A DNA stretch of 38,535 nt from Tahibacter harae. GTDB lineage: Bacteria; Pseudomonadota; Gammaproteobacteria; Xanthomonadales; Rhodanobacteraceae. Position numbers and translations under genes: made by a program. The stretch's first letter is position 1, and every line of letters begins with the position of its first letter. The notes under the pieces are model-generated. The model was not told where the DNA came from and ran no database searches. It saw nothing but the letters and a program-made list of their open reading frames with translations. Shown here in pieces: positions 8,950 to 26,980 of the stretch. The stretch lies in NCBI RefSeq assembly GCF_024437735.1, contig NZ_JANFQO010000032.1:1-38535 (forward strand), in the 5' to 3' direction.

Positions 8950-10008
8950 TTACAGCTGGATGGCGTCGAGCACGGCCTGGACGAACTCGGCCGGTGCTTC
9001 CTGCGGCGGGTTGTGGCCGATGCCGCCGCGGAAGATGCGGTGCTGGTACTTGCCGGTGAACTTGTTCGCGTAGGCTTCGGGCCTGGGATGCGGCGCGCCG
9101 TTCGCATCGCCTTCGATGGTGATAGTCGGCACCGTGATCAGCGGCGCGGCGGCGAGGCGTTGCTCCAGCGCGGCATATTTGGGCTCGCCGTCGGCCAGGC
9201 CGAGACGCCAACGGTAGTTGTGGATCACGATGGCGACATGGTCCGGGTTGTCCAGCGCCGCGGCGCTGCGTTCGAAGCTGGCGTCGTCGAACTTCCATTG
9301 CGGCGAAGCCAGCTGCCAGATCGTGCGCGCGAAGTCGTGCGTGTACTGCGCATAGCCGGCCTGGCCGCGCTCCGTGGCGAAGTAGAACTGGTACCACCAC
9401 TGCAGCTCCGCCGCGGGCGGCAGCGGCTTGCGATTCGCTTCCTGGCTGCCGATCAGATAGCCGCTGACCGATACCAGCGCCTTGACGCGCTCGGGCCACA
9501 GCGCGGCGACAATGTCGGCCGAACGCGCGCCCCAGTCGTAGCCGGCCAAGGTGGCGCGGCGGATCTCCAGCGCATCCATCAGTGCCACGACATCGCTGGC
9601 GAGCGCGGCGGGCTGGCCGTTGCGCGGCGTTTGTGCAGAAAGGAACCGGGTGCTGCCGTAGCCGCGCAGATGCGGAACGATGACCCGGTAGCCGCGTGCG
9701 GCCAGTTGCGGCGCGACGGCGGCATAGCTGTTGATGTCGTAGGGCCAGCCGTGCAGCAGGATAATCGCCTCGCCATCGGCCGGGCCGAGTTCCGCGTAGC
9801 CGATGCGCAGGTCCCCGGCGTCGACCTGCCTGTCGGCCTGCAGCGCCGGCGGCAGTGACGCGGCGGTGGTAGCGGATGCCGCGGCGCAGGCGACACTGCT
9901 CAGCAGCAGGCCGCCCGCGGCGATCAAGCGCGCCAGCCGGCGCAGGGTCTGCGGGACCGGAAACGCAGAGGCAGCGCGAGCGGTCCTGCGGGTTTCTGCC
10001 GTAGTCAT
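8950..10008 (-). CDS. Alpha/beta hydrolase, epoxide-hydrolase-like, exported
   Basis: 352 residues. An N-terminal export signal (about 1-46, RR followed by a hydrophobic run and CAAASA) suggests secretion or periplasmic location; a twin-arginine-like TRRTAR precedes it but is not canonical. The hydrolase core has the oxyanion HGWP (86-89), the nucleophile elbow AGYDWGARSAD with Asp158, a probable acid Asp301 (EGDANG) and His332 (GGIGHNPP). An Asp nucleophile with HGWP is characteristic of epoxide hydrolases and haloalkane dehalogenases rather than serine esterases. The substrate is unknown. It is the first gene of the run with Ohr and the TlpA-like protein, and divergent from the two-component system at 10274. 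Confidence 0.87.
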   Translation of the reverse strand: MTTAETRRTARAASAFPVPQTLRRLARLIAAGGLLLSSVACAAASATTAASLPPALQADRQVDAGDLRIGYAELGPADGEAIILLHGWPYDINSYAAVAPQLAARGYRVIVPHLRGYGSTRFLSAQTPRNGQPAALASDVVALMDALEIRRATLAGYDWGARSADIVAALWPERVKALVSVSGYLIGSQEANRKPLPPAAELQWWYQFYFATERGQAGYAQYTHDFARTIWQLASPQWKFDDASFERSAAALDNPDHVAIVIHNYRWRLGLADGEPKYAALEQRLAAAPLITVPTITIEGDANGAPHPRPEAYANKFTGKYQHRIFRGGIGHNPPQEAPAEFVQAVLDAIQL

Positions 10009-10131
10009 GAGCGTGTCCTTCAGCGGGGCCGGCGGAGGTGCCGGGGTTGGCGCTATTGCGCGCCCGGCCGGTATCGGCGACGTGTCGCCCGCGCCGGGGA
10101 TTTGTCAGCCAATCGCGCAAACCGGCCCGCG

Positions 10132-10179
10132 GATACAGTGCGATACAAAGCCGCGCGCGGCCGACACCGGCCGGATACC
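10132..10179. promoter_or_regulatory. GATACA direct repeats between hydrolase and response regulator
   Basis: GATACA occurs at 10132-10137 and 10142-10147, 10 bp apart, with a related GATACC at 10174-10179 (32 bp further). Tandem hexamers one helical turn apart are the usual layout of OmpR/PhoB-family sites. They lie in the 265-bp divergent region that serves both the hydrolase operon and the two-component system, so they could be the response regulator's own site. Confidence 0.4.
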
Positions 10180-10273
10180 GCGCCGGCGTCCAATGGACCG
10201 GCGCCGGCGGCACAGGCGCTACCATCCGCCGCAGCGGGCCAGCCTCCGCCGCGATCCGACACCCGGAGCTTTC

Positions 10274-11017
10274 ATGACCAGCCAAGCCGATCACATCCTC
10301 GTCGTCGACGACGATCGCGAAATCCGCCAGATGGTCGGTGACTACCTGCGGCGCAACGGGCTGCGCACCAGCCTGGCCGCGGACGGGCGCGAGATGCGCG
10401 CGGCGCTGGATACCAGCGATATCGACCTGATCGTGCTCGATGTGATGATGCCCGGCGAGGATGGGCTGACGCTGTGCCGCAACCTGCGCGCCGGCCGGCA
10501 TCGCGCCGTGCCGGTCATACTGCTCACCGCGCGGGACGATGAAACCGACCGCATCGTCGGCCTGGAAATGGGCGCCGACGATTACGTCACCAAGCCGTTT
10601 TCGTCACGCGAGCTGCTGGCGCGGATCACCGCCGTGATCCGGCGCGCGCGCATGCTGCCGCCGAATCTGCAGGTTTCCGAGGCCAGCCGGCTGATCCGCT
10701 TCGGCGACTGGCGCCTGGACACCACGGCGCGCCATCTGCTCGATGCGGAAGGCACGGCCTATCCGCTGAGCGGCGCCGAATTCCGGCTGTTGCGCGTGTT
10801 CATCGATCACCCCCAGCGCGTGCTCAGCCGCGACCAGCTGCTGAACCTCACCCAGGGGCGCGATGCCGAGGCCTTCGACCGCTCCATCGACCTGCTGGTC
10901 AGCCGTCTGCGCCAGCGCCTGGGCGACGGCGCGCGCGAACAGAGCTATATCAAGACCGTGCGCAGCGAAGGCTACGTCTTCAGCCAGGCGGTAGTGCTGC
11001 TGGGCGACGACGCATGA
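10274..11017 (+). CDS. OmpR-family response regulator
   Basis: 247 residues from the ATG at 10274, preceded by GGAG 6 bases upstream; the frame is open further 5' but the family start is MTSQADHILVVDDDREIRQM. The receiver domain (1-120) has the acidic pair in VVDDD, phospho-acceptor Asp56 (LIVLDVMMPGEDG), the LLTARDD switch Thr and Lys107 (DDYVTKPF). The winged-helix DNA-binding domain (about 145-240) ends with DRSIDLLVSRLRQRLGD and YIKTVRSEGYVF. It overlaps the sensor kinase gene by 4 bases (ATGA). The divergent hydrolase/Ohr operon is its likeliest nearby target; that link is inference. Confidence 0.95.
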   Translation: MTSQADHILVVDDDREIRQMVGDYLRRNGLRTSLAADGREMRAALDTSDIDLIVLDVMMPGEDGLTLCRNLRAGRHRAVPVILLTARDDETDRIVGLEMGADDYVTKPFSSRELLARITAVIRRARMLPPNLQVSEASRLIRFGDWRLDTTARHLLDAEGTAYPLSGAEFRLLRVFIDHPQRVLSRDQLLNLTQGRDAEAFDRSIDLLVSRLRQRLGDGAREQSYIKTVRSEGYVFSQAVVLLGDDA

Positions 11018-12342
11018 ATACGGCGGCCAGATCACCGTTGCTCCAGCGCCTGCTGCCGCGCACGCTGCGCGCGCGTCTGCTGCTGATCCTCGGCGCCGGC
11101 TTGCTGCTGGCCTACGCACTGGCGTTCGCGCTGCTGTTCGCCGAACGCATGGATGCCACGCGCACGATGATGCTGCGCAACCTGTACGAGGATGTGCCCG
11201 TCAGCGTGGCCCTGCTGGAGAGCCTGCCGGCGCAGCAGCGCGCTGCGTGGATTCCGCGCCTGGAGCGGCGCACTTATCGCTACCTGCTGCGGGCGGGGCA
11301 GGAAGGCATGCCGCTGACGAGTACGCGCGCGCACCAGGTGACCATGCTGATCGATGAGGCGCTGGATCATCGCTACAGCCTGCGCGCGCGCGCCGTCTCG
11401 GCGCGGCCGGAGCGCTACGAGGTGGAACTCCGGTTGAAGGACGGTGCGCCGGTCACCATCGAAGTGACGCCGGCGCCGATGCCGCTGGCGACCTGGCTGC
11501 CGTGGGTGCTGGCGCTGCAGGGGCTGCTGCTGTCGGCGTGCGCCGGCATGGCGGTGCGCCTGGCAACGCGGCCGCTGGCGCGGCTGGCCACGGCGGCCGA
11601 GCAGATGGACCTGGCCGGCCAGGGCGCGCCGGTCGCGCAGGATGGTCCGGCCGAAGTCGTCATGGCCGCGCAGGCGCTGAACCGGCTGCAATCCCGCGTC
11701 GCCGCCCATGTCGCCGAACGCACGCAGATCCTGGCCGCCATCTCGCATGACCTGCAGACGCCGATCACCCGGCTGCGCCTGCGCGTGGAGGCGTGGGAGG
11801 CCTCGGCGGCGCAGGACAAGCTTCTGGCCGATATCGACCAGATCAGCCAGCTGGTGCGCGATGGGCTCAGCTATGCGCGCAGCGCGACTGTGGCCACCGG
11901 ACCGGCGCTGCGGCTCGACCTGCGCAGCTTCCTGGAGAGCCTCGTGGCGGACTACCAGGATGCCGGCAAGGCGGTGCAGCTGGCCGACGGCCCCAGCGCG
12001 CTGCACAGCACCCATCCGGAAGTGCTGCGCCGTGTGCTGCAGAACCTGATCGACAACGCCTTGAGCCATGCGGGCAGCGCCCAGGCGCGGCTGCGCGTGG
12101 ACGAAGCCGGCACTGCCTGCATCGATGTGCTGGATCGCGGTCCGGGCATTCCCGACGACCAGCTCGCCGCCGTACTGCAGCCGTTCCACCGGCTGGAACC
12201 GTCGCGTTCGCGCAGCACCGGCGGCACCGGCCTGGGGCTGGCCATCGCGCAGCAGCTTGCGCAGGCGCTGGGGGCGGGACTGAGCCTGAGCAACCGGGAG
12301 GGCGGTGGATTGCAGGCCACGGTAATGCTGGCAAGGCGCTAG
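11014..12342 (+). CDS. Membrane sensor histidine kinase (EnvZ/OmpR-type partner)
   Basis: 442 residues. Two transmembrane segments (about 21-43 and 160-182) flank a periplasmic sensor loop of roughly 115 residues without recognisable fold. A HAMP segment (LATRPLARLATAAEQMDL) follows. The dimerisation/phosphotransfer box is AAISHDLQTPITRLRLR with His245. The ATPase domain has LIDNALSHA (N box), DRGPGIPDD (G1) and STGGTGLGLAIAQQ (G2). The ATG overlaps the response-regulator stop. The H box with HDLQTP is the EnvZ-like subgroup. The stimulus is unknown; adjacency to Ohr and the redoxin makes an oxidative or membrane-lipid signal plausible. Confidence 0.95.
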   Translation: MNTAARSPLLQRLLPRTLRARLLLILGAGLLLAYALAFALLFAERMDATRTMMLRNLYEDVPVSVALLESLPAQQRAAWIPRLERRTYRYLLRAGQEGMPLTSTRAHQVTMLIDEALDHRYSLRARAVSARPERYEVELRLKDGAPVTIEVTPAPMPLATWLPWVLALQGLLLSACAGMAVRLATRPLARLATAAEQMDLAGQGAPVAQDGPAEVVMAAQALNRLQSRVAAHVAERTQILAAISHDLQTPITRLRLRVEAWEASAAQDKLLADIDQISQLVRDGLSYARSATVATGPALRLDLRSFLESLVADYQDAGKAVQLADGPSALHSTHPEVLRRVLQNLIDNALSHAGSAQARLRVDEAGTACIDVLDRGPGIPDDQLAAVLQPFHRLEPSRSRSTGGTGLGLAIAQQLAQALGAGLSLSNREGGGLQATVMLARR

Positions 12343-14254: not shown

Positions 14255-14803
14255 TCACTCCAGCATCAGCAGCAGCGCGCGCACCAGCTGTGTCGTCTGC
14301 TGCGGGTTGCGCGCGTCGAAGGTGAATACCGGTGGCGTGATGCCCTGCGCGCGCATGGCCTTGCGCACGGTGATCAGATCGAATTCCGGCACCTCTTCGG
14401 TGCGCGTGATGCCGATCACCATGGGCAAGGCCGCATCGAAGTCGGCGACGGTGCGCGCCCAGTAGCCGCAGTGCGTAACGACGTCGGGATCGGAGCCATC
14501 CAGCACGATGACCGCGCCCAGCGCGCCGCGGAGCAGGATGGGCCGCATAAACTCGAAATGGTCCTGGCCCGGGCAGCCATAGAGAAAGACGCTGTGGCCG
14601 CCCTCGATGCGCACGGTGGCGAAATCCAGCGCCACCGTAGTCGATGTCTTGTCGCCGCGGGTGGGGCCGCTGAGGGGCATGTCGGTGGAAACGGGCGGCG
14701 AGTCCGCGATCGAGGTGATGGCCGTGGTCTTGCCGGCGCCCACCGGGCCGACGAACACCAGTTTCGTTGACGACGCGGCGTCGATGCAGGTCTGGTCCAG
14801 CAT
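14255..14803 (-). CDS. Small Ras-like GTPase, CvnD/COG2229 type
   Basis: 182 residues from the ATG at 14803, with AGGAA 6 bases upstream; the frame extends 5' but the region before has no coding character. G1 is GPVGAGKT (19-26). The switch I/G2 region is TRGDKTSTTVALDF. G3 is GCPGQ (76-80), where the usual Walker-B Asp is Gly, as in CvnD-like GTPases (GTPGQ). G4 is degenerate, GITRTEE, lacking NKxD. G5-like is FDAR (162-165). CvnD of the streptomycete conservons and MglA of Myxococcus act with Roadblock proteins, and two Roadblock-like genes lie upstream in this operon. It is cytosolic and probably a signalling switch. Guanine specificity is uncertain because of the G4 change. Confidence 0.85.
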   Translation of the reverse strand: MLDQTCIDAASSTKLVFVGPVGAGKTTAITSIADSPPVSTDMPLSGPTRGDKTSTTVALDFATVRIEGGHSVFLYGCPGQDHFEFMRPILLRGALGAVIVLDGSDPDVVTHCGYWARTVADFDAALPMVIGITRTEEVPEFDLITVRKAMRAQGITPPVFTFDARNPQQTTQLVRALLLMLE

Positions 14804-14938
14804 GAATTTCCTGTGGAATCCTTGGCATGATGGCGACTGGCTGTGTTGCGGTCGATGCTGCTTGCGTTCATCAGCTGAGCGAACGGAGTGCCGTCTGCAT
14901 AGCATCGTCGCAGAGAGCGCTGTGGCCAGCAGCAGGCT

Positions 14939-15901
14939 TCACCAAGCCAGCCCGAAACGCGCTGCCAGCTTGCTCAGCAACGGTCTGGCAACACGCGCCG
15001 CCTGTGCGGCTGGCGGCGTCGCCGCGGCTGGCGGCTCATCGATGACGAGCAGATTGCTGGCACGGAACGCCCAAAGGCAGGCATTCACCTCGTCGGCGCT
15101 GATGCCGGCTTTTGCGGCGCGTTCCTTCACGCAGCCGGGCCGCTGCTGCAGCCAATTGGCGATGCGCAGCGGCGTAAGGGTTTCCCGCGTGCTGCCCAGA
15201 TCCGGAAAGTCACGCAGGGCGTAGGTGCTGCCGGCGAAGGCCGGCAGCTGATGTCTGCAGCGCAGGGCGCCGTCGACCAGGAAGGCATCGAGGCTCCAGG
15301 AGATTTCACCGATGCCCGGATGACGCTCGGCGACGGCGGTGAACGCATGGGTTTCCGCGCGCTCGCCCAGCGCGTCGCGTGCCGCCAGCATGTCGCTGAG
15401 CGTCGCCGCGGTCACGCGCCCGCGCGAGGCGCGGATGCTGATGCGGCGGCCGGCTATGTCGGCATCAATGTCGCGTCCGCGCCAGCTGTCGTGGGTCAGC
15501 TCCAGCAGGGCGGAAACATCGCTGGTGTGGCCGGGCAGGGGCGCGGGCGCGCTGGTGCCGGGGCGTGCCGGGGAATCCGGCTTCCTGGCGGCATCGATCA
15601 CGCCGCGCAGCGCGGATACCAGGGACGCCGCGGTGCCTTCCGCTACGTGGCGTTGCGTCGACAGCGCGAAATGGATGGGCTGCGCGGCGTAGGCGACGAG
15701 GCCGATGCCGCGCTTCTGCGCCAGCTCCATCACCCGCCTGCCGTAGGCGTCGTCGGCGTTGACGACGACGACATCGCAGCGCGTGCCGTCCCAGGGCGAC
15801 AGTTTCGCTTCGATGCGTACAGCGCCCAGCAGGTTCGCTGCCAGCCTCACCTTCTGGTCTTCCGGATCGGTCAGCGCCGCAGTTCGGAGGTCGATGCGCA
15901 T
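14939..15901 (-). CDS. Uncharacterised protein: receiver-like N-terminus, winged-helix-like C-terminus
   Basis: 320 residues, function not recognised. Residues 1-105 look like a Rossmann/receiver-type alpha/beta fold with a strand CDVVVVNADDAYG (42-54) and a second strand GIGLVAYA (65-72), but without a convincing phospho-acceptor set. A Pro/Ala linker (107-125) follows, then a mixed region (128-230). A compact helical segment TLTPLRIANWLQQRPGCVKE to SADEVNACLWAFRASNLLVI (241-287) resembles a winged helix. A basic/hydrophobic tail ends the protein. In conservon operons a DUF742 winged-helix protein (CvnC) sits between Roadblock and GTPase; this gene holds the same position and may be its functional counterpart. 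No Shine-Dalgarno is seen before the ATG at 15901. Confidence 0.7.
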   Translation of the reverse strand: MRIDLRTAALTDPEDQKVRLAANLLGAVRIEAKLSPWDGTRCDVVVVNADDAYGRRVMELAQKRGIGLVAYAAQPIHFALSTQRHVAEGTAASLVSALRGVIDAARKPDSPARPGTSAPAPLPGHTSDVSALLELTHDSWRGRDIDADIAGRRISIRASRGRVTAATLSDMLAARDALGERAETHAFTAVAERHPGIGEISWSLDAFLVDGALRCRHQLPAFAGSTYALRDFPDLGSTRETLTPLRIANWLQQRPGCVKERAAKAGISADEVNACLWAFRASNLLVIDEPPAAATPPAAQAARVARPLLSKLAARFGLAW

Positions 15902-15967
15902 GGGGACGTTTTGATGAGGGATGGCCGAAGTCGTCGCCGCGGGGAACCAGGCAGGAAGCCGTCGCCG

Positions 15968-16324
15968 TCAGGAGAAATCGATGGCTTTCTCGAACGAGCG
16001 CAGTTCATGCCGTGCCATGGCGAGATTAGCTTTTGCCCGATCCAGCACCACATAGAGGAACAGCTTCTGGTTGGATTCCAGCGGACGCAGCAGGTGGTAC
16101 TGCTTGGCCAGGCTGATCAGGACGTCTTCGATGGTGTCGTTCAATTTCAGGGAGCCGGCGACCTTGCGTTTGGCGCGGATGACTTCGGTGTTGCCGGCCG
16201 CGGCCAGTTCGAGATTGATGCCGCTGCCGTCGCCGGCCAGCAGCATGCCGCTTTCACTGTCGACCAACGCAGAGGCGACGTAGCCGTCGATGCTGCGCAG
16301 GGCTTCTAGACTGATTTTTGCCAT
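15968..16324 (-). CDS. Roadblock/LC7-domain protein
   Basis: 118 residues from the ATG at 16324. A single Roadblock/LC7 fold: MAKISLEALRSIDGYVASAL helix, then VDSESGMLLAGDG hairpin, a helix with NTEVIRAKRKVAGSLKL, LEDV-like TIEDVLISLAKQYHLLRPLE, and the C-terminal strand FLYVVLDRAKANLAMARHEL. Roadblock proteins dimerise and act as regulators (GAP- or scaffold-like) of small Ras-like GTPases, as MglB does for MglA. The partner here is presumably the GTPase two genes downstream. It has no signal or membrane segment. The gene is 66 bases upstream of the 320-residue protein, on the same strand. Confidence 0.85.
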   Translation of the reverse strand: MAKISLEALRSIDGYVASALVDSESGMLLAGDGSGINLELAAAGNTEVIRAKRKVAGSLKLNDTIEDVLISLAKQYHLLRPLESNQKLFLYVVLDRAKANLAMARHELRSFEKAIDFS

Positions 16325-16411
16325 GACGTGGGTTCCGGTTGTTGGATGACGAATCGACACAGCGGCGGGACGCCCGGTCACGTAGCTGCTCTGGAAAAAC
16401 AAACTGAGGGT

Positions 16412-16858
16412 TTACGCAAGGACGCTGGCCAGCGATTCCGCGCAGTCCAGGGTGCGGCGCAGCACCATCGCCAGGTTGTCGCTGCGGCTGGCCGCAGCGC
16501 ACAGGACGTATAGCGGCCTGGGCGATGGAACACGCACGGCCACGATCAGGCCATGGGCCGATGTGATAGTCGCGTAGGAACAGCGGCCGTGCGACGTCTC
16601 CTTGGAGAACGTCTCGCTGAGTGCCAGAAAGGAACTGGCCATCGCGGCAACCCGCTCGGCCTGATCCCGCGAAGCCTCGCCGATGGTCGCCAGCGGACGC
16701 CCGTCCACATAGCACAGGCTGACCAGCTCCATGGCGGGCGAGGTTGCGAAGAAGGCTTGCAGGTGTCCGGCATACGGCTGGGTTGCATCGTCGTGTACAG
16801 CCGCCACCGCGGGCGGTTCCGCCGCCGCGCCGTCACTGAGCGCTTCAATCCCGAGCAT
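16412..16858 (-). CDS. Second Roadblock-like protein, first gene of the GTPase operon
   Basis: 148 residues from the ATG at 16858, chosen for the strong GGGGAGGACAGG just upstream. After an Ala/Pro-rich N-terminus (1-35) the rest fits a Roadblock/LC7-like fold: a helix with HLQAFFATSPAMELVSLCYV, hairpin DGRPLATIGEASRDQAERVA, helix ASSFLALSETFSKET, strand CSYATITSAHGLIVAVRVPS and a final helix DNLAMVLRRTLDCAESLA. It is more diverged than the downstream Roadblock gene and could form a heterodimer with it. It opens the minus-strand operon and is divergent from the LuxR-type regulator. Confidence 0.7.
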   Translation of the reverse strand: MLGIEALSDGAAAEPPAVAAVHDDATQPYAGHLQAFFATSPAMELVSLCYVDGRPLATIGEASRDQAERVAAMASSFLALSETFSKETSHGRCSYATITSAHGLIVAVRVPSPRPLYVLCAAASRSDNLAMVLRRTLDCAESLASVLA

Positions 16859-17207
16859 CCTGTCCTCCCCCTGAAGAGGCTGCTGCAGCGGTTCCGGTGA
16901 GACTGCGCAGTAGATTGCGCAGTCCGTTCCAACGTGGTGGTGATGCAGTCGTGCGATGCTGTGCCGTCGCTCAAGTCCTGCATGACCGGTTCCAGGGCAA
17001 CTCAACGCTACGCTCCAGCAGCATGACCTCAGCATAGGCAGTAGGTGGTTGGCTTGCCATGGGGGATCCCCCGGTTCGCATGACAATAAACATCGGGTAT
17101 ACGGGGATTTATGCCAAGTCCGGATCGATGGTCACATTTGTTTTGGTTTTCCATGCGCTACGGCATGACAAAACGCCTCGGCGGGGCGGCGAAACAAGGT
17201 TGCGCGC
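16859..17207. promoter_or_regulatory. divergent control region of the GTPase operon and LuxR-type gene
   Basis: 349 bases without a gene. It contains a perfect 12-bp palindrome, GGGGGATCCCCC, at 17061-17072, about 200 bases upstream of the Roadblock-like start and 136 bases upstream of the LuxR-type start. A somewhat AT-richer stretch (17078-17115) follows. It presumably carries promoters for both directions; no clear -35/-10 pair could be fixed. Confidence 0.45.
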
Positions 17208-17852
17208 ATGTGCCATAAACGTCGCGAGGTCAGCATCCTCATCACCGTTCCTTCCGAACTGGCGGCGGTAGGCCTGGTCGTCGGGCTGTCGTCGCGTTCC
17301 GAACTGCACGTTCTGGCCACTACCCATTCGTTGAACCAGGGTTTGGCCATTCTGCAGAAGCTGGCGCCCGAAATCGTGATCAGTGCGCCGGAGTGGGTGC
17401 CGGCGTTCGAGCAGCTCTTGCACGAGGGTGAGATCCGGACACGCCTGGTCGCATTCGGCTCCAGGCAGCACCTGGGCATGATCGCGGAGGAGACGGCGCA
17501 GGTGGCTTGCGGTTATTTCAGCTATCTGTCGCCAGCCGGGACCTACCTGCCTCTGATCGACGCGGTTTCCCATTGCCGTCTGCCGGCGATGGACAGCAAG
17601 CACAAGCTGTGTCGCAGTTGTGCCACGCGGCTGTCGCTGCGGCCGCCGAAACCGAACCTGTCTGCGCGCGAGATGGAGGTCTTCGTCGCCGTGGGCAAGG
17701 GGTTCGGCACCTCGGAAATCGCCGCGCAGATGGGCATTAGCGTGAAGACTGTCGAGTCATTCCGCGAGAGCATCAAGAGCAAGCTGGCGCTGGGGTCGGC
17801 CCGGGAAATGAGCGCCGTCGCCGCGGAGTGGTGTCGCGGCGGGTTTTCCTGA
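17208..17852 (+). CDS. LuxR/NarL-type regulator with degenerate receiver domain
   Basis: 214 residues. The C-terminal GerE/LuxR helix-turn-helix is clear (150-205): LSAREMEVFVAVGKGFGTSE then IAAQMGISVKTVESFRESIK. The N-terminal 1-115 has receiver-like alternation (VSILITVPSELAAVGLVVGL, APEIVISAPEW, RTRLVAFGS). However, the expected phospho-acceptor Asp after the third strand is absent (ISAPEW) and the conserved Lys is not found, so it is unlikely to be controlled by ordinary phosphorylation. The linker holds a His/Cys cluster, H122 C123 H132 C135 C138 (including CRSC), that could bind metal or sense redox state. It is divergent from the GTPase/Roadblock operon and is the obvious candidate for its regulator or output. 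Confidence 0.85.
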   Translation: MCHKRREVSILITVPSELAAVGLVVGLSSRSELHVLATTHSLNQGLAILQKLAPEIVISAPEWVPAFEQLLHEGEIRTRLVAFGSRQHLGMIAEETAQVACGYFSYLSPAGTYLPLIDAVSHCRLPAMDSKHKLCRSCATRLSLRPPKPNLSAREMEVFVAVGKGFGTSEIAAQMGISVKTVESFRESIKSKLALGSAREMSAVAAEWCRGGFS

Positions 17853-18056: not shown

Positions 18057-20102
18057 TCACTGCAGACCGTCCTTGATCGCCTGGGCCATGGAGCCCTGCG
18101 CATCGTCGCCGCTGAATTCCCAGAAGAAGGCGCCGCCCAGTCCCTGGTTCTTCACGTACTGCATCTTCTCGAACACCAGGGCCGGATCGTCGTAGCTCCA
18201 GAACTGGTTGCCGCTGAGCAGCCAGTGGGCGCGCGCGGTGGCGTCGGTGAAGTGGCTGCCGGACTTGGTCTTGAGCACCTTGTAGTCCTCGTTGCCGGCT
18301 TCATACGTGCCCGGCGCCGCGCTGCCGCTCTGGTACAGGCCGTTGTTGGCCGAGGACACGTTGGTCCAGCCGCGGCCGTAGAAGCCGATGCCCAGGTTCA
18401 GCTTGGCCGCCGGCACGCCGCGGGTGCGGAAGGCCTGCAGCGCATCGTGGGTGTTGTACGAGCGTTGGTCGCCGGTGGAGGGATCGGCCGGCGAGCCGTA
18501 CAGCGGCGAGTGGTGATTGGTCTGCGGATCCCAGGTGCCGTGGAAGTCGTAGGTCATCACGTTGATGTAGTCGAGGTACTGGTGGTAGGTGCCCGGATCG
18601 GTGACGCGGATCTTGTCCACGCCGGCACCGGCGGCGATGGTCAGCAGCAGGCCCGGACGCACCAGATCGAGCTGGCGGCGGAACTCGGCCAGCAGCGCAG
18701 TGAAGTTGGCATTGTCTTCCGGCGCGCCGCAGGCGATGCCGCAAGCCACGGGGTATTCCCAGTCCAGGTCTATGCCGTCGAACACGCCCGCCGCCGCGCC
18801 AGGGCCGCCGGCGCCGTCGGTCTGCGGCAGGTTGCCGCGGATGTAGGCGTCGATGCACGAAGCCACGAAGGCCTGGCGGTTTTCCGGCCGCGCCGCGCTG
18901 GAGAAGCCGCGCGACCAGGTCCAGCCGCCGAGCGAGATCAGCACCTTGAGGTTGGGATACTTGGCCTTGAGCTTCTTGAGCTGGTTCCAGTTGCCGCGCA
19001 GCGGCTGGTCCCAGGTATCGCCGACGCCGTCCACGCTTTCGCCGGCCTGGAAGGACTTGGTGTAGTCGGCGAACGCATCGCCGCCCTCGCCGGTGGATTC
19101 GTTGGTCGGAATGGTCACGCCGACCTGGCAGCGGTTGTTGCGCACATTGCCGAAGGCGTAGTTGATGTGGGTGAGCTTGGCCGCGGTGTTGCTGGTATCG
19201 ATGTTCTTGACGCGGTAGTTGCGGCCGTAGATGCCCCACTGGGCGAAGTAGCCGATCACGTTCTTGCTGCCGCCGACGATGATCTGCTTGGTGCGCGCGG
19301 TGATCGGCGCGCTCTGCGCCGAGGCGCCGGCTTCGCTGACGGCGGCTACGGTGAAGCTGTAGGCGGTGTCGGGCGCGAGGCCGTTGTTGGTGAAGCTGTT
19401 GGTGGTGGACTCACCCTGCTGCACACCGCCGCGGAATACGCGGTATTTCACCGTGCAGTTCGGGCCGGCGGCGACGTTGCCCCAGCCCAGGCTGATGCTG
19501 GTGGTCGTCTGCGCCGGCGAGGCGAGGCCGGACGGCACCGATGGAATCGTGGTGCAGGTGCCATTGCCCGTGGTGCTGGCGCTGATCGCGGCCGACTGGG
19601 CCGAGGCGTTGGTGGCCACGTCGCGGGCGCGCACGGTGTAGCTGTAGCTGGTGCTGGCGCTGAGGCCGGTGTCGGTGAAGGTGGTCGCGGTGGGGCTGCC
19701 GACGATGCCGCCGTTGCGGTAGACGTCGTAGCCGGCCACGCCGCTGCCGCCGGTGTTGTCGGTGGAGGCCGACCAGGTCAGCGTGATCGAGCTGCTGGTG
19801 CTGGAGGGCGCGGCCAGGTTGGCCGGCACGCTGGGCGGCGTGATGTCGGTCTGGCCGGTGCCGCAGGCGCCGAGGTCCGCATACCAGCCGCAGCTGGGGC
19901 AATGCGTGGGCGGTGCATTCCAGATGGGTACGTTGGCCTGGTACAGACGGTTCTGGTAGACCATCTTGTCGCCGGGGCTGTAGATCGCCGACTGGCTCCA
20001 GGCGGCAACGCCGCTGCAATTGGCGGTCTGGGCCAGGGCCGACCAGCTGCTGCCGGCCAGGACGAGTGTGACGATGGAAGTTAAAGCCGATCGGAAGCGC
20101 AT
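18057..20102 (-). CDS. Secreted GH18 chitinase with CBM5/12 and two FnIII domains
   Basis: 681 residues. A signal peptide (1-24, cleavage near SALA-QT) precedes a CBM5/12-type chitin-binding domain (about 28-80: WSQSAIYSPGDKMVYQNRLY and YQANVPIW, with Cys pairs). Two fibronectin type III domains follow (about 88-177 and 187-272). The GH18 barrel (about 280-680) has the catalytic FDGIDLDWEYP with Glu449 as proton donor, plus SLGGWTWSRGFS (390-401) and the MTYDFHG motif (516-522). It hydrolyses chitin outside the cell, probably as an endo- or processive enzyme. GGAG and AAAGGAC lie just before the ATG. Regulation may involve operators in the long upstream region. A terminator follows the stop. 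Confidence 0.95.
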   Translation of the reverse strand: MRFRSALTSIVTLVLAGSSWSALAQTANCSGVAAWSQSAIYSPGDKMVYQNRLYQANVPIWNAPPTHCPSCGWYADLGACGTGQTDITPPSVPANLAAPSSTSSSITLTWSASTDNTGGSGVAGYDVYRNGGIVGSPTATTFTDTGLSASTSYSYTVRARDVATNASAQSAAISASTTGNGTCTTIPSVPSGLASPAQTTTSISLGWGNVAAGPNCTVKYRVFRGGVQQGESTTNSFTNNGLAPDTAYSFTVAAVSEAGASAQSAPITARTKQIIVGGSKNVIGYFAQWGIYGRNYRVKNIDTSNTAAKLTHINYAFGNVRNNRCQVGVTIPTNESTGEGGDAFADYTKSFQAGESVDGVGDTWDQPLRGNWNQLKKLKAKYPNLKVLISLGGWTWSRGFSSAARPENRQAFVASCIDAYIRGNLPQTDGAGGPGAAAGVFDGIDLDWEYPVACGIACGAPEDNANFTALLAEFRRQLDLVRPGLLLTIAAGAGVDKIRVTDPGTYHQYLDYINVMTYDFHGTWDPQTNHHSPLYGSPADPSTGDQRSYNTHDALQAFRTRGVPAAKLNLGIGFYGRGWTNVSSANNGLYQSGSAAPGTYEAGNEDYKVLKTKSGSHFTDATARAHWLLSGNQFWSYDDPALVFEKMQYVKNQGLGGAFFWEFSGDDAQGSMAQAIKDGLQ

Positions 20103-23399: not shown

Positions 23400-26300
23400 T
23401 CAGTACTCAGTACTGATGGTGACGCCGCTGAACGCGCTGGCCGCATGCAGGCTGATGTAGAAATAGCCGGCGGGCGGGTTGTTGATGGTCAGGGTCTCGC
23501 CGTTGCCGCTGTTGACCGAGCGCTGCTGGTAGGCACTGGTGGTGGCCCAGGTCGCGCTGTTGGCATACAGGTTGGCATCGCCGGTGCCGCCGCTGGTCTT
23601 GATCCGCAGCTGGCTCACGCCGGCCGGCAGGTTCAGATAGAAGTAGGCGTAGTTGCCCTGGCTCGCGCTGATGTTGCTGCGCTTGCAGTTCTGCGCCAGC
23701 ACGCGGGCATCGCTGCCGCTGCATTCCGGCAGGGTGCTGCCGCCGCTGACGGTCACGGTCTTGCTGACGCTGCGGCTGGCGCCGCCGTTGTCGGTGACGG
23801 TCAGGGTAACGGTGTAGCTGCCGGCGCTGGCATAGGTCTTGGACGGGCTGGTCGCGGTGGAGCTGCTGCCATCGCCGAAGTTCCAGCTGCGCGAGACGAT
23901 GTTGCCGTCACTGTCGCTGGACGCGTCGCTGAAGCTGACGGCAAGACCGTTGGCGCTGAAGGTGAAGTTCGCCGTCGGCGGCTGGTTGGTCGACGGCGGC
24001 GTGTAGCTCGCGGTCAGGCTCACGCCGGAGAAGGCGGAGTAGCCGTTGAGCATGACGTGGTAGCGGCCGGCCTGCACGGTGCTGATGGTGCAGGTCTCGC
24101 TGTTGCCGCTGACGTACGGACGGCAGTCGTAGGTCGAGGTGGTCGGCGCGCTGCCGAAGCGCACGTACATGTCGGCATCGCCGCTGCCGCCGCTCATGAC
24201 GAAGCGCAGGTTGGTCGCGCCGGCCGGCACGTCGAAGGTGAAGCCGAGCGTGGCGTTGGCTGCAGCGCTCAGGTTGGTCTTGGCCACGCCGTTCTGCAGC
24301 TCGGTACTGCCGCCGCCGCCGCCCGTCACCGTCACATTGCGCGACACGCTGTGGCTGGCGCCGGCGTTGTCGGTCACGCTGAGGCTGACCGCGTAGGTGC
24401 CGGCCGTGCTGTAGGTCTTGCTCGGGTTGGTGGCGGTGGAACTGGTGCCGTCGCCGAAGTTCCAGCTGCGCGAGGCGATATTGCCGTCGCTGTCGCTGGA
24501 GCCGTCGCTGAAGTTCACGCTCAGGCCGTTGGCGACGAAGCTGAAGTTTGCCACCGGCGGCACGTTGCTGCCGCCGCCGCAGCCGCTGCTGGACGGATTG
24601 GCGACGCAGGTGAGGAAGCTGCGGAACTCGGTGTCATAGCGCGTGCCCAGGCCGTTCATGAAGCTGGCGTAGCCGCTGTAGTTGCCCGGACGGAAATAGC
24701 CCAGGATGGAACTCACGTCGGCGCGGTGCTTCTCGAACATGAAGCGCACCGCCAGGTAGCCCCAGTTGTATACCCGCGTGGTGCCGCTGTTGTAGTCGTT
24801 CTGGAAGATGGTGCTGATCGGGTAGGTTCCCGCAGCGGCCTGGTTCACCGCGCCGGTATAGGTTTGGTTGCGGTAGCTGTAGGACATGTATTCGGCGAAG
24901 CCTTCCACCCACCACACCGTCTTCTGCGCCATGGCGGCGGAGAAGTCGCCGTACATGTTGAAGCGGCCGTCGAGGTAGTGCACGTATTCGTGGGTGAGGT
25001 TCCAGATCTCGAAGCTGGGCAGCAGCCATTCCGCCTCGTAGGCGATGAAGCGTGCCTGGTTGCCGGCCGCGGCCGGGTTGCCTTCGAGGTACATGCCGCC
25101 GTTGTTGGTATCGATGCCGAACAGCGCGCCGGCGTAGGTGCCGTAGTCGCTGCTGCTGTTGAACACGACCATTTCCAGCGCGCTGTTGTTGTCGTTGGCC
25201 ACCGGCGTGTTGTTGCTGGCGACCTGCTGGTGGAAATAGGTTTCCTGGCCGGCGACGGTGGCGCAGGCAGTGTTGATCTCGGCCTGGGTCATGGACTGCA
25301 CGCGCAGGCGCAGGGTGCTGCTGCAGTTGTAGGTGATGGGCAGCACCGAGGCTTCCAGGCGGGTCTGGAAGTCGCACAGGTTGTAGTAGCTGCAGTTGGC
25401 CTTGTCGTAGTAATCGACCATCTCGCCGATGCCGACCCACAGCGAGGCGGTGTTGCCGGTGACCGAACTGCGGTCGAGCAGGGTCTTGGCGCGCGAGCGG
25501 GCCAGGGTCTGCAGGCTGCCGGTGTACTGCAGGAAGCGGCCGAGTTCGCGGCCGGCGTTGGAGACCAGGTAGCTCTCGTCGCCGCCGAGCAGGCTGAAGT
25601 TGCGGTTGGCGAAGTTGTACAGCGTGTCGACGATGGACGTGTCGGACTGCACCAGGCTGACGAAGGCGCTGTCGTAGTGGCCGCGGAACAGTACGGTGAA
25701 GGCATTGTTCACCGCCGACTTCATCCAGAAGTAGGGCGAGTAGCGCGCGTTGTCGTAGTTGTCGAGCAGGCGCTTGACCACGGGCAGATAGCGCGCGTTC
25801 TCGCTGGAGCTGTCGATCAGGGTGACGAACTCGGCCAGGATCTCGCCGTGGGCGTCATTGACCAGGCCGAAGTTGGCATTGGCGGCGAAAGCATCCAGCG
25901 CCGGGCGGATCGCGTTGCGCAGGCTGGTGCCGTACGCGCCGACCGTGGCCGAATCGTAATACTGCACGTAGTAGCCGGCGCGCAGGAACAGGATCAGCTG
26001 CAGGGCGCCGCTGCTGTTGGTGCCGTTGTAGCTGGCCGCGGTGCTCTGCAGCGCATTGGCCACGGTGACCATCTGCGCTTCGCGGAAAGTCGAATAGGCG
26101 CTGTTGCCGGAAAGATTGAACAGGCTGTTGACGCAGTCGGTATCGACGGCCTTCAGCGCGTTCACCAGCGCGGTGCCGCTGAGGCTGCCGAACTGATTGC
26201 TGTCGCAGGCGGCCTTGAGGCCGCCGAAGGCTTCGGAAGGACGTGCGAGCTTGAGCGCGCCGGCGTCCTGCAGGTCGTAGTCGGAACGGTGGATTTGCTT

Positions 26301-26519
26301 GAGCGAGGACTGCGGCGCGCGCTGCGCCGCGGTCACGTGCTGCGCCTGCAGGCGGTGTGGCAGGCGGGCCACGGATTCGACCGCGGCGGACTTGCCTGCG
26401 CCGCTGCTGCGGGCGCCGGCGCGCATGCCTTCATCGGCGCCGGCCGAGGCCGGCAGAAGCACTGCGCCGAGCAGGGCGGCGGTCAGCAGTCTGGAACGGT
26501 AACGCACTGGGTACGACAT
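23400..26519 (-). CDS. Secreted M9-family (microbial) collagenase with two PKD and two PPC domains
   Basis: 1039 residues from the ATG at 26519, chosen for GGAGGGGAG just upstream. The signal peptide is about 1-28 (LLPASAGA). The M9 N-terminal activator region (about 85-400) precedes the peptidase unit with the zinc motif HEYVH (510-514) and the downstream Glu in WVEGFAEY (537-544), as in gluzincin collagenases. Then come PKD domain 1 (about 654-733), a PPC domain, PKD domain 2, and a C-terminal PPC domain. The two PKD domains are nearly identical (SRSWNFGDG, SDGNI). The PPC domains are commonly removed on maturation. It cleaves collagen or gelatin outside the cell. An A/T-rich promoter region lies between this gene and the Lrp-type regulator. 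Confidence 0.95.
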   Translation of the reverse strand: MSYPVRYRSRLLTAALLGAVLLPASAGADEGMRAGARSSGAGKSAAVESVARLPHRLQAQHVTAAQRAPQSSLKQIHRSDYDLQDAGALKLARPSEAFGGLKAACDSNQFGSLSGTALVNALKAVDTDCVNSLFNLSGNSAYSTFREAQMVTVANALQSTAASYNGTNSSGALQLILFLRAGYYVQYYDSATVGAYGTSLRNAIRPALDAFAANANFGLVNDAHGEILAEFVTLIDSSSENARYLPVVKRLLDNYDNARYSPYFWMKSAVNNAFTVLFRGHYDSAFVSLVQSDTSIVDTLYNFANRNFSLLGGDESYLVSNAGRELGRFLQYTGSLQTLARSRAKTLLDRSSVTGNTASLWVGIGEMVDYYDKANCSYYNLCDFQTRLEASVLPITYNCSSTLRLRVQSMTQAEINTACATVAGQETYFHQQVASNNTPVANDNNSALEMVVFNSSSDYGTYAGALFGIDTNNGGMYLEGNPAAAGNQARFIAYEAEWLLPSFEIWNLTHEYVHYLDGRFNMYGDFSAAMAQKTVWWVEGFAEYMSYSYRNQTYTGAVNQAAAGTYPISTIFQNDYNSGTTRVYNWGYLAVRFMFEKHRADVSSILGYFRPGNYSGYASFMNGLGTRYDTEFRSFLTCVANPSSSGCGGGSNVPPVANFSFVANGLSVNFSDGSSDSDGNIASRSWNFGDGTSSTATNPSKTYSTAGTYAVSLSVTDNAGASHSVSRNVTVTGGGGGSTELQNGVAKTNLSAAANATLGFTFDVPAGATNLRFVMSGGSGDADMYVRFGSAPTTSTYDCRPYVSGNSETCTISTVQAGRYHVMLNGYSAFSGVSLTASYTPPSTNQPPTANFTFSANGLAVSFSDASSDSDGNIVSRSWNFGDGSSSTATSPSKTYASAGSYTVTLTVTDNGGASRSVSKTVTVSGGSTLPECSGSDARVLAQNCKRSNISASQGNYAYFYLNLPAGVSQLRIKTSGGTGDANLYANSATWATTSAYQQRSVNSGNGETLTINNPPAGYFYISLHAASAFSGVTISTEY

Positions 26520-26980
26520 GAACTCCCCTCCACGGAAATGATTGGATTCCCCCGATTCCGCGCCGCCGGCTCGAACGTCCGTTGCGGTGCGGCGGCGGAA
26601 ATCTAGGAGGCGCGGGGACCGCCGTATTGTCATATTTATGGTTTAAATCGGCGGTATGCGCAAAATGGGGAGATTTATTTCATTTTCCCGCAATGCAGCA
26701 AAAATCATACAAAACAATAGCTTCTGCGCTGTGGCGCGCAAGGCCGAAAAGGCGGCGGGAAAATCGGGCGGGCGCCGGCGGGAAAATCCGCGGACTCCTG
26801 TCACGAAGCCGAAATCTCATACCGAAATCGACGCCATTCGCGTCGCCGGCCGCATGACAGTCGGACCCGGGCGCGCGAAATTGGCGCCCGCGGAGCCGGC
26901 CCAGCCATTGGACGCGATCCGCACCGCCGCCGGGGCCGCCAAATCGGCCTCCGCCACCGCCACTTTTTGCGGGGACCGCC
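26520..26980. promoter_or_regulatory. 461-base divergent region between collagenase and Lrp-type gene
   Basis: No gene. It holds the most AT-rich stretch of this part (26625-26725). ACCGCCG (26618-26624) and CGGCGGT (26649-26655) form inverted arms around an AT-rich core of 24 bases that includes CATATTTATGG. Lrp-type proteins favour AT-rich, bendable sites, so autoregulation and control of the collagenase are both possible but unproven. Confidence 0.4.

Follow-up and report, generated by a model that had tools for sequence, protein, structure and literature searches.

What kind of system is formed when a small GTPase gene shares an operon with genes for two Roadblock proteins and a third protein of no obvious family, and a LuxR-type regulator is encoded divergently beside them? 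The question is raised by a locus of Tahibacter harae at positions 14255-17852 of contig NZ_JANFQO010000032.1 (assembly GCF_024437735.1); the window, meaning the whole stretch of DNA that was analyzed, comprises positions 1 to 38,535. An earlier note, prepared from the letters of this DNA, had proposed a Roadblock-GTPase operon without a kinase, in what it took to be a new arrangement. The five open reading frames that it named were all found where it had placed them:

14255-14803, minus strand: GTPase gene (182 amino acids; Ras-like, Group 3 MglA)
14939-15901, minus strand: gene of the third component, P320 (320 amino acids)
15968-16324, minus strand: RbB gene, Roadblock protein (118 amino acids)
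16412-16858, minus strand: RbA gene, Roadblock/LC7 protein (148 amino acids)
17208-17852, plus strand: divergent LuxR/GerE regulator gene (214 amino acids)

Judged by its gene content and sequence marks, the operon belongs to the Group 3 MglA systems. The available text of PMC4316618, published in 2014, already describes Group 3 as an MglA with one or two MglB proteins and a conserved protein that is receiver-like at its N-terminus and has a winged helix-turn-helix (wHTH) at its C-terminus, so the arrangement itself is not new. What is new here is a LuxR family with four cysteines (Cys4) and a probable DNA site, a modular third protein that includes a BLUF version, and the conservation of RbB together with its prophage-like copies. 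We consider it likely that a signal received by P320 is passed to a Roadblock-regulated GTPase, and that LuxR sets the expression of this Group 3 system.

Gene content and family of the operon

The operon couples an MglA-family GTPase to MglB homologs, as seen from Pfam, profiles, fold and gene order. The GTPase matches PF03029 (9.8e-9), and its profile matches Rab and MglA chains in the PDB. Residues K25, Q80, D163 and R165 are invariant in 30/30 aligned sequences. The G4 motif deviates from [NT]KxD, a lysine standing in its lysine column in just 4 of the 30, and G5 reads DAR, with D163 and R165 in all 30 and the full triplet in 23. Three loci (L134, L147 and L170) each carry two adjacent GTPase genes of the Group 3 family.

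Both Roadblock assignments of the earlier note hold, one by Pfam and the other by predicted fold. RbA (16412-16858) matches PF03259 at 3.3e-7, over the curated cut-off, and its profile matches include CvnB5 (3leq, 3.8e-7). RbB stays below the gathering score of the same family (0.054; 13.7 bits vs a cut-off of 23), and 7 of the 23 members of its own family match PF03259 at E <= 0.1, the best at 2.2e-4. Its AlphaFold2 (AF2) model, with a pLDDT of 90, has the Roadblock order a-b-b-a-b-b-b-a. The best PDB match in Foldseek is Myxococcus MglB (6hjm, E 1.8e-6), Thermus MglB is also among the best, and the predicted fold matches MP1/p14 as well.

The neighborhood is conserved in relatives, as the earlier note had expected: iterated profiles found all four proteins together in 56/80 RbB loci, these being the best 80 of 393, some on contigs that end early. 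Among sampled genomes, the GTPase profile reaches 54/151 in the order (E <= 1e-15) and, at the stricter E <= 1e-20, 64/369 in the class and 57/398 in the phylum. According to the available text of PMC4316618, Group 3 occurs almost exclusively in beta- and gamma-Proteobacteria, and Neisseria, Stenotrophomonas and Xanthomonas are named. The lack of a kinase in the unit is likewise borne out, as the histidine kinase of the window (11014-12342) has no tblastn match at E <= 1e-10 in 185 loci of relatives.

This last result bears on the idea that the operon is a conservon of the actinobacterial type (CvnA-D) that moved into Proteobacteria. Such a transfer would agree with the match of RbA to CvnB5 and with the DAR motif in G5, which the sources, as far as available, give as common to Groups 2 and 3. 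It would not explain the missing kinase or the absence of a DUF742 match in P320 (Pfam). Conservon membership was rejected because no kinase, the part of CvnA, is conserved with the unit, and we regard the transfer as most improbable.

RbB is the most conserved of the four proteins. In 21 loci chosen by hand, where tblastn shows the four genes in a single order, its median identity is 0.81, vs 0.55 for the GTPase, 0.41 for RbA and 0.33 for P320, and it is more alike than each of the three other proteins in 210/210 locus pairs. Likeness at four-fold sites is 0.56 for RbB, 0.50 for the GTPase, 0.45 for P320 and 0.43 for RbA. Recent exchange was rejected as the cause, these sites being merely slightly more alike in RbB, and for the same reason purifying selection is the preferred explanation of the sequence pattern.

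The protein also travels apart from the operon. By tblastn, RbB occurs in 28 plasmid records from Streptomyces, Deinococcus, Hymenobacter, Comamonas and others, thus reaching other phyla; 27 of the 28 matches have <60% identity and are annotated as hypothetical or unannotated at the match. On one Streptomyces plasmid (L128:3001-5333) an RbB-like gene adjoins a Roadblock gene and a gene whose product matches DUF4388 weakly (0.0012, under the cut-off); no GTPase is annotated in this stretch. No RbB was found by tblastn among 50,697 GenBank phage records, and four IMG/VR contigs gave matches. In two IMG/VR contigs (L123, L124) and in Acinetobacter (L063), an orphan RbB lies a short way upstream of terminase genes, which fall into three different PHROG families:

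L123, 7953-8357: orphan RbB
L124, 7950-8357: orphan RbB
L063, 7093-7970: orphan RbB, two tandem copies

A further Acinetobacter locus (L045, near 8000) has the same layout of open reading frames as L124. It is possible that the orphan RbB of these prophage-like regions is prophage cargo.

The third component and its variants

P320 has no Pfam match over cut-off. Its AF2 model (pLDDT 85) comprises a receiver-like N-terminus (about residues 1-106), a middle region, a winged helix, a low-confidence linker and a C-terminal helix. The receiver-like/winged-helix protein that the earlier note saw at the CvnC position is therefore present, though its receiver match is weak: Foldseek gives no match at E <= 1e-3 for the N-terminus, and the top-ranked weak matches are a mixture of atypical receivers, arginine decarboxylase, NAD kinase, flavodoxins and other alpha/beta folds. 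The P320 profile matches an ArsR-type wHTH at E 0.011. The C-terminal part recurs among relatives:

14939-15238, minus strand: C-terminal module of P320 that recurs in relatives, residues 222-320 (comprising a W-P motif, a winged helix and a basic tail)

P320 of the window has F instead of the module's W, at residue 232. Of the 98 GTPase regions surveyed, 81 have a match to a module profile that was iterated on fetched loci. One hundred regions had been hand-picked, not drawn at random, from the match lists of order, class and phylum and from places in the own genome, and two proved to be without the GTPase; loci L084-L122 were omitted from the module profile scan.

In some relatives the N-terminal domain is a different one. 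From 87 third-component proteins, three of them from plasmid records, one (L173) was dropped as a merged frame, and the remaining 86 were scanned with Pfam. Three of the 86 begin with a BLUF domain (PF04940): L131, L187 and L188, the last two, as judged by their N-terminal sequences, coming from two genomes of one family. The first is a plasmid protein of Agarilytica (8.1e-23), encoded at L131:4983-7054 in the order RbB, BLUF protein, GTPase, RbA; its C-terminus aligns with the P320 profile at hhalign E 4.9e-4 and a probability of 32%. Among the literature matches listed by title, no paper is evidently on a BLUF and MglA or a BLUF and Roadblock system. Another plasmid, conjugative and from Acinetobacter wuhouensis, carries Roadblock, third-component and RbB genes (L130:47-1924). 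As far as sequences tell, the P320-type third protein is modular and its N-terminal domain exchangeable, because BLUF replaces the receiver-like part in some relatives, and an exchangeable N-terminal domain fits an input role for the third protein.

The swap is compatible with either of two roles for P320, input adaptor or transcription factor. According to the latter, proposed in the available text of PMC4316618, the GTPase/Roadblock pair modulates the DNA-binding output of a receiver-wHTH protein, and the whole is a switch of gene expression. The receiver-like and winged-helix architecture suits this proposal, as do Pfam matches of wHTH type in some third-component proteins (best MarR_2, 1.7e-6), but each such family matches in <=3/86 proteins at E <= 0.01. 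The charge of the winged-helix region, with a mean of +0.5 vs +1.4 for 12 GerE regions, does not decide on DNA binding. A transcription factor would also leave unexplained the basic C-terminal helix that follows the low-confidence linker. The last 26 residues of the third component are net positive in 115/119 proteins, with a mean tail charge of +3.7 vs -1.4 for the GTPase, +1.1 for RbB and +0.6 for RbA, and perhaps this basic tail docks P320 at the membrane. We give the transcription factor a smaller but real chance, and prefer P320 as the input subunit.

The divergent regulator and its palindrome

The LuxR protein has a GerE domain (PF00196, 1.8e-12) and a degenerate receiver. Four cysteines, C101, C123, C135 and C138, are invariant in 12/12 operon-linked homologs. 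The regulator had been called phosphorylation-independent, which suits the window protein, with alanine at the column of the phosphorylated aspartate, but not the family at large, as 7 of the 12 linked homologs have D there. The divergent gene is real and accompanies a minority of the operons, a Cys4 LuxR being found in 11/80 RbB loci. A search of the order gave LuxR matches in 71/151 genomes at E <= 1e-20; of the 30 LuxR loci listed, 10 have all four cysteines and 20 do not.

The intergenic region holds a palindrome, visible in the aligned intergenic sequences of relatives, and a possible promoter element:

17059-17073, minus strand: putative LuxR operator core CGGGGGATCCCCCAT (intergenic alignment of relatives; enrichment at LuxR-linked loci)
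17031-17037, minus strand: possible -10 element CTATGCT of the operon; it follows the 17-mer of the operator at 19 nt

The palindrome is statistically associated with LuxR. A matrix built from six loci was applied to 14 LuxR-linked loci that had not contributed to it, and 12 of the 14 exceed the 95% level of the null and 10 the 99% level, whereas 0/15 mgl loci without a linked LuxR exceed the 95% level. The exact pattern occurs at 5 sites in the 6 Mb of the own genome, vs 1 for the reversed control; two of the five lie beside LuxR-RbB genes, and there is no second site in the window. A related sequence is present on the other side of LuxR in L007 and L009.

Could LuxR nevertheless be an unrelated neighbor, and the palindrome belong to something else? 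The low frequency of the association speaks for this, with a Cys4 LuxR in just 11 of the 80 RbB loci and, among the 30 loci listed, in 10/151 genomes of the order. Moreover, two of the 14 loci (L085 and L007) are without the operator upstream of LuxR, and a congener (G012) has three exact operator sites, none at its own LuxR locus. Against it, all 11 Cys4 carriers, counted from the matches listed together with a place elsewhere in the own genome (C11), adjoin Group 3 genes, at C11 RbB alone; eight of the 11 were not part of the search profile, whereas three either belonged to it or occupy the same places as its loci. The absence of any site above the 95% level from the 15 mgl loci without LuxR argues the same way, as do L017 and C11, which retain LuxR and site with RbB alone. 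On balance we find it quite unlikely that LuxR and palindrome are foreign to the operon.

The place C11 is one of four RbB places in the own genome, three of which are in operons; it has RbB and LuxR, and none of the remaining operon genes within 13 kb. At C11 and L017, RbB has LuxR and operator beside it, and the stretch examined contains no GTPase. L010 looks the same, but its contig ends 1 kb after RbB. Because of these three places, LuxR may serve RbB first. A scan for a sigma-70 consensus yielded nothing for the operon promoter. Of 19 sites, 9 are followed by the pattern CTAnnnT at a distance of 17-21 nt, vs a null rate of 0.011, six of the nine being sites from which the matrix was derived. 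Such spacing would suit an activator that binds beside the -10 element.

The earlier note had raised the possibility that the operon controls the exported hydrolases around it. Encoded nearby are a GH18/fibronectin-III chitinase-like protein (18057-20102) and a PKD-domain protein that resembles M9 collagenases (23400-26633, minus strand). The former has no tblastn match at E <= 1e-10 in the 185 loci, whose flanks extend to <=8 kb. Control of exported hydrolases was rejected, being unsupported by linkage in relatives' loci or by operator sites. About 2 kb from the operon, on the plus strand at 9803-12342, are encoded the histidine kinase mentioned above and a response regulator that has an additional region at its N-terminus.

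Proposed mechanism and known systems

In the mechanism that we favor, the GTPase would act as a Ras-like switch, and RbA and RbB, probably joined in a dimer or mixed complex, would be its regulators of the MglB/MglC type and serve as GTPase-activating protein (GAP) or co-GAP. Signal input and scaffolding would fall to P320: its N-terminal domain varies (an atypical receiver here, BLUF in some relatives), and its winged-helix module with the basic tail probably attaches it to the GTPase/Roadblock complex and perhaps also to the membrane. By binding the intergenic palindrome, LuxR would set operon expression, and its four cysteines would possibly let it respond to a metal or to redox state. The output would be control of a surface organelle or of motility, type IV pili being the likeliest. 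This output is suggested by analogy with MglA biology and by one genetic study of a Group 3 system, PMC11112851, whose available text reports that mutation of an orphan mglB-3 in Snodgrassella leads to motile flares and to colonization of a non-native host.

Several observations weigh against this account. The receiver match of P320 is weak, and its winged helix may bind DNA, as PMC4316618 in its available text suggested. The C-terminal module was missed in 17 of the 98 GTPase regions, 9 of these from phylum genomes outside the class, and the tail is more amphipathic than its shuffles (p < 0.05) in just 23/119 proteins, the termini of RbA being so in 41/172. RbB was found in 40/151 genomes of the order at E <= 1e-8, vs 54/151 with the GTPase, and is therefore not part of every such system; in the 98 GTPase regions RbB has a match in 51 and RbA in 86. 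The relation of RbA to RbB rests on fold, because comparison of their profiles shows no significant relation (hhalign probability 2.9%, the RbB alignment being shallow). Beside one Group 3 cluster (L220) stands an ordinary LuxR that lacks the four cysteines, and to this are added the two loci without the operator upstream of LuxR and the congener without an exact site at its LuxR locus. Finally, a PilT-family match is present in 150/151 genomes of the order, 148 over the curated cut-off; PilT is so nearly universal that its co-occurrence says nothing on a pilus role.

A bolder combination of these elements can be imagined, although we hold it to be doubtful. P320 would be a membrane-tethered, plug-in input adaptor that controls nucleotide exchange by the GTPase, so that its BLUF version would make a Ras-like GTPase controlled by blue light. 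RbB would be a hub shared by several GTPase modules per cell and for that reason would barely change, the spare RbB of Acinetobacter prophages would rewire host signaling, and the four cysteines of LuxR would read metal or redox state and set the dose of RbB.

These findings matter for a family to which the available text of PMC4316618 and PMC11112851 assigns no signal and little genetics. Fusion to BLUF points to the third protein as the side where the signal enters, and blue light is a signal that an experimenter can turn on and off freely. With its operator, the Cys4 LuxR is a concrete candidate regulator of a Group 3 system. For RbB, so highly conserved and encoded in prophage-like regions and as an orphan too, one would like to learn the binding partner.

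Among known systems, the Group 3 MglA loci of Wuichet and Sogaard-Andersen (2014, PMC4316618) are the counterpart, being alike in MglA, in one or two MglB proteins, in the receiver-like/winged-HTH protein, in a degenerate G4 and a DAR G5, and in their occurrence in beta- and gamma-Proteobacteria. The available text of that paper mentions no linked Cys4 LuxR or operator, BLUF variant, RbB conservation or prophage copies. The mgl locus of Snodgrassella (PMC11112851), compared by its description, also belongs to Group 3; it has two coupled mglB genes and one orphan close to one of them, and RbB likewise occurs both coupled and as an orphan. Unlike here, no LuxR is mentioned in the available description. 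The MglA-MglB system of Myxococcus and Thermus shares the Roadblock fold of RbB and the Ras-like GTPase. As far as the available sources go, its MglA belongs to Group 1, with a canonical G4, no P320 and RomR as the receiver-domain partner, in contrast to the degenerate G4 and P320 of this operon. Actinobacterial conservons (CvnA-D) also combine Roadblock protein and GTPase in one operon and have the DAR motif, but include the kinase CvnA and CvnC/DUF742, both absent here. The eukaryotic Ragulator-Rag system resembles the operon in its Roadblock proteins and small GTPases and has a membrane-anchored scaffold; the likeness is one of analogy, with no support here for common descent or for equivalence of P320 to that scaffold. 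Aspartate-less receivers, in the available text of PMC4395418, are comparable as degenerate receivers on DNA-binding regulators; the cysteine variants described there have Cys at the position of the phosphorylated aspartate, while the four cysteines of the LuxR protein lie elsewhere.

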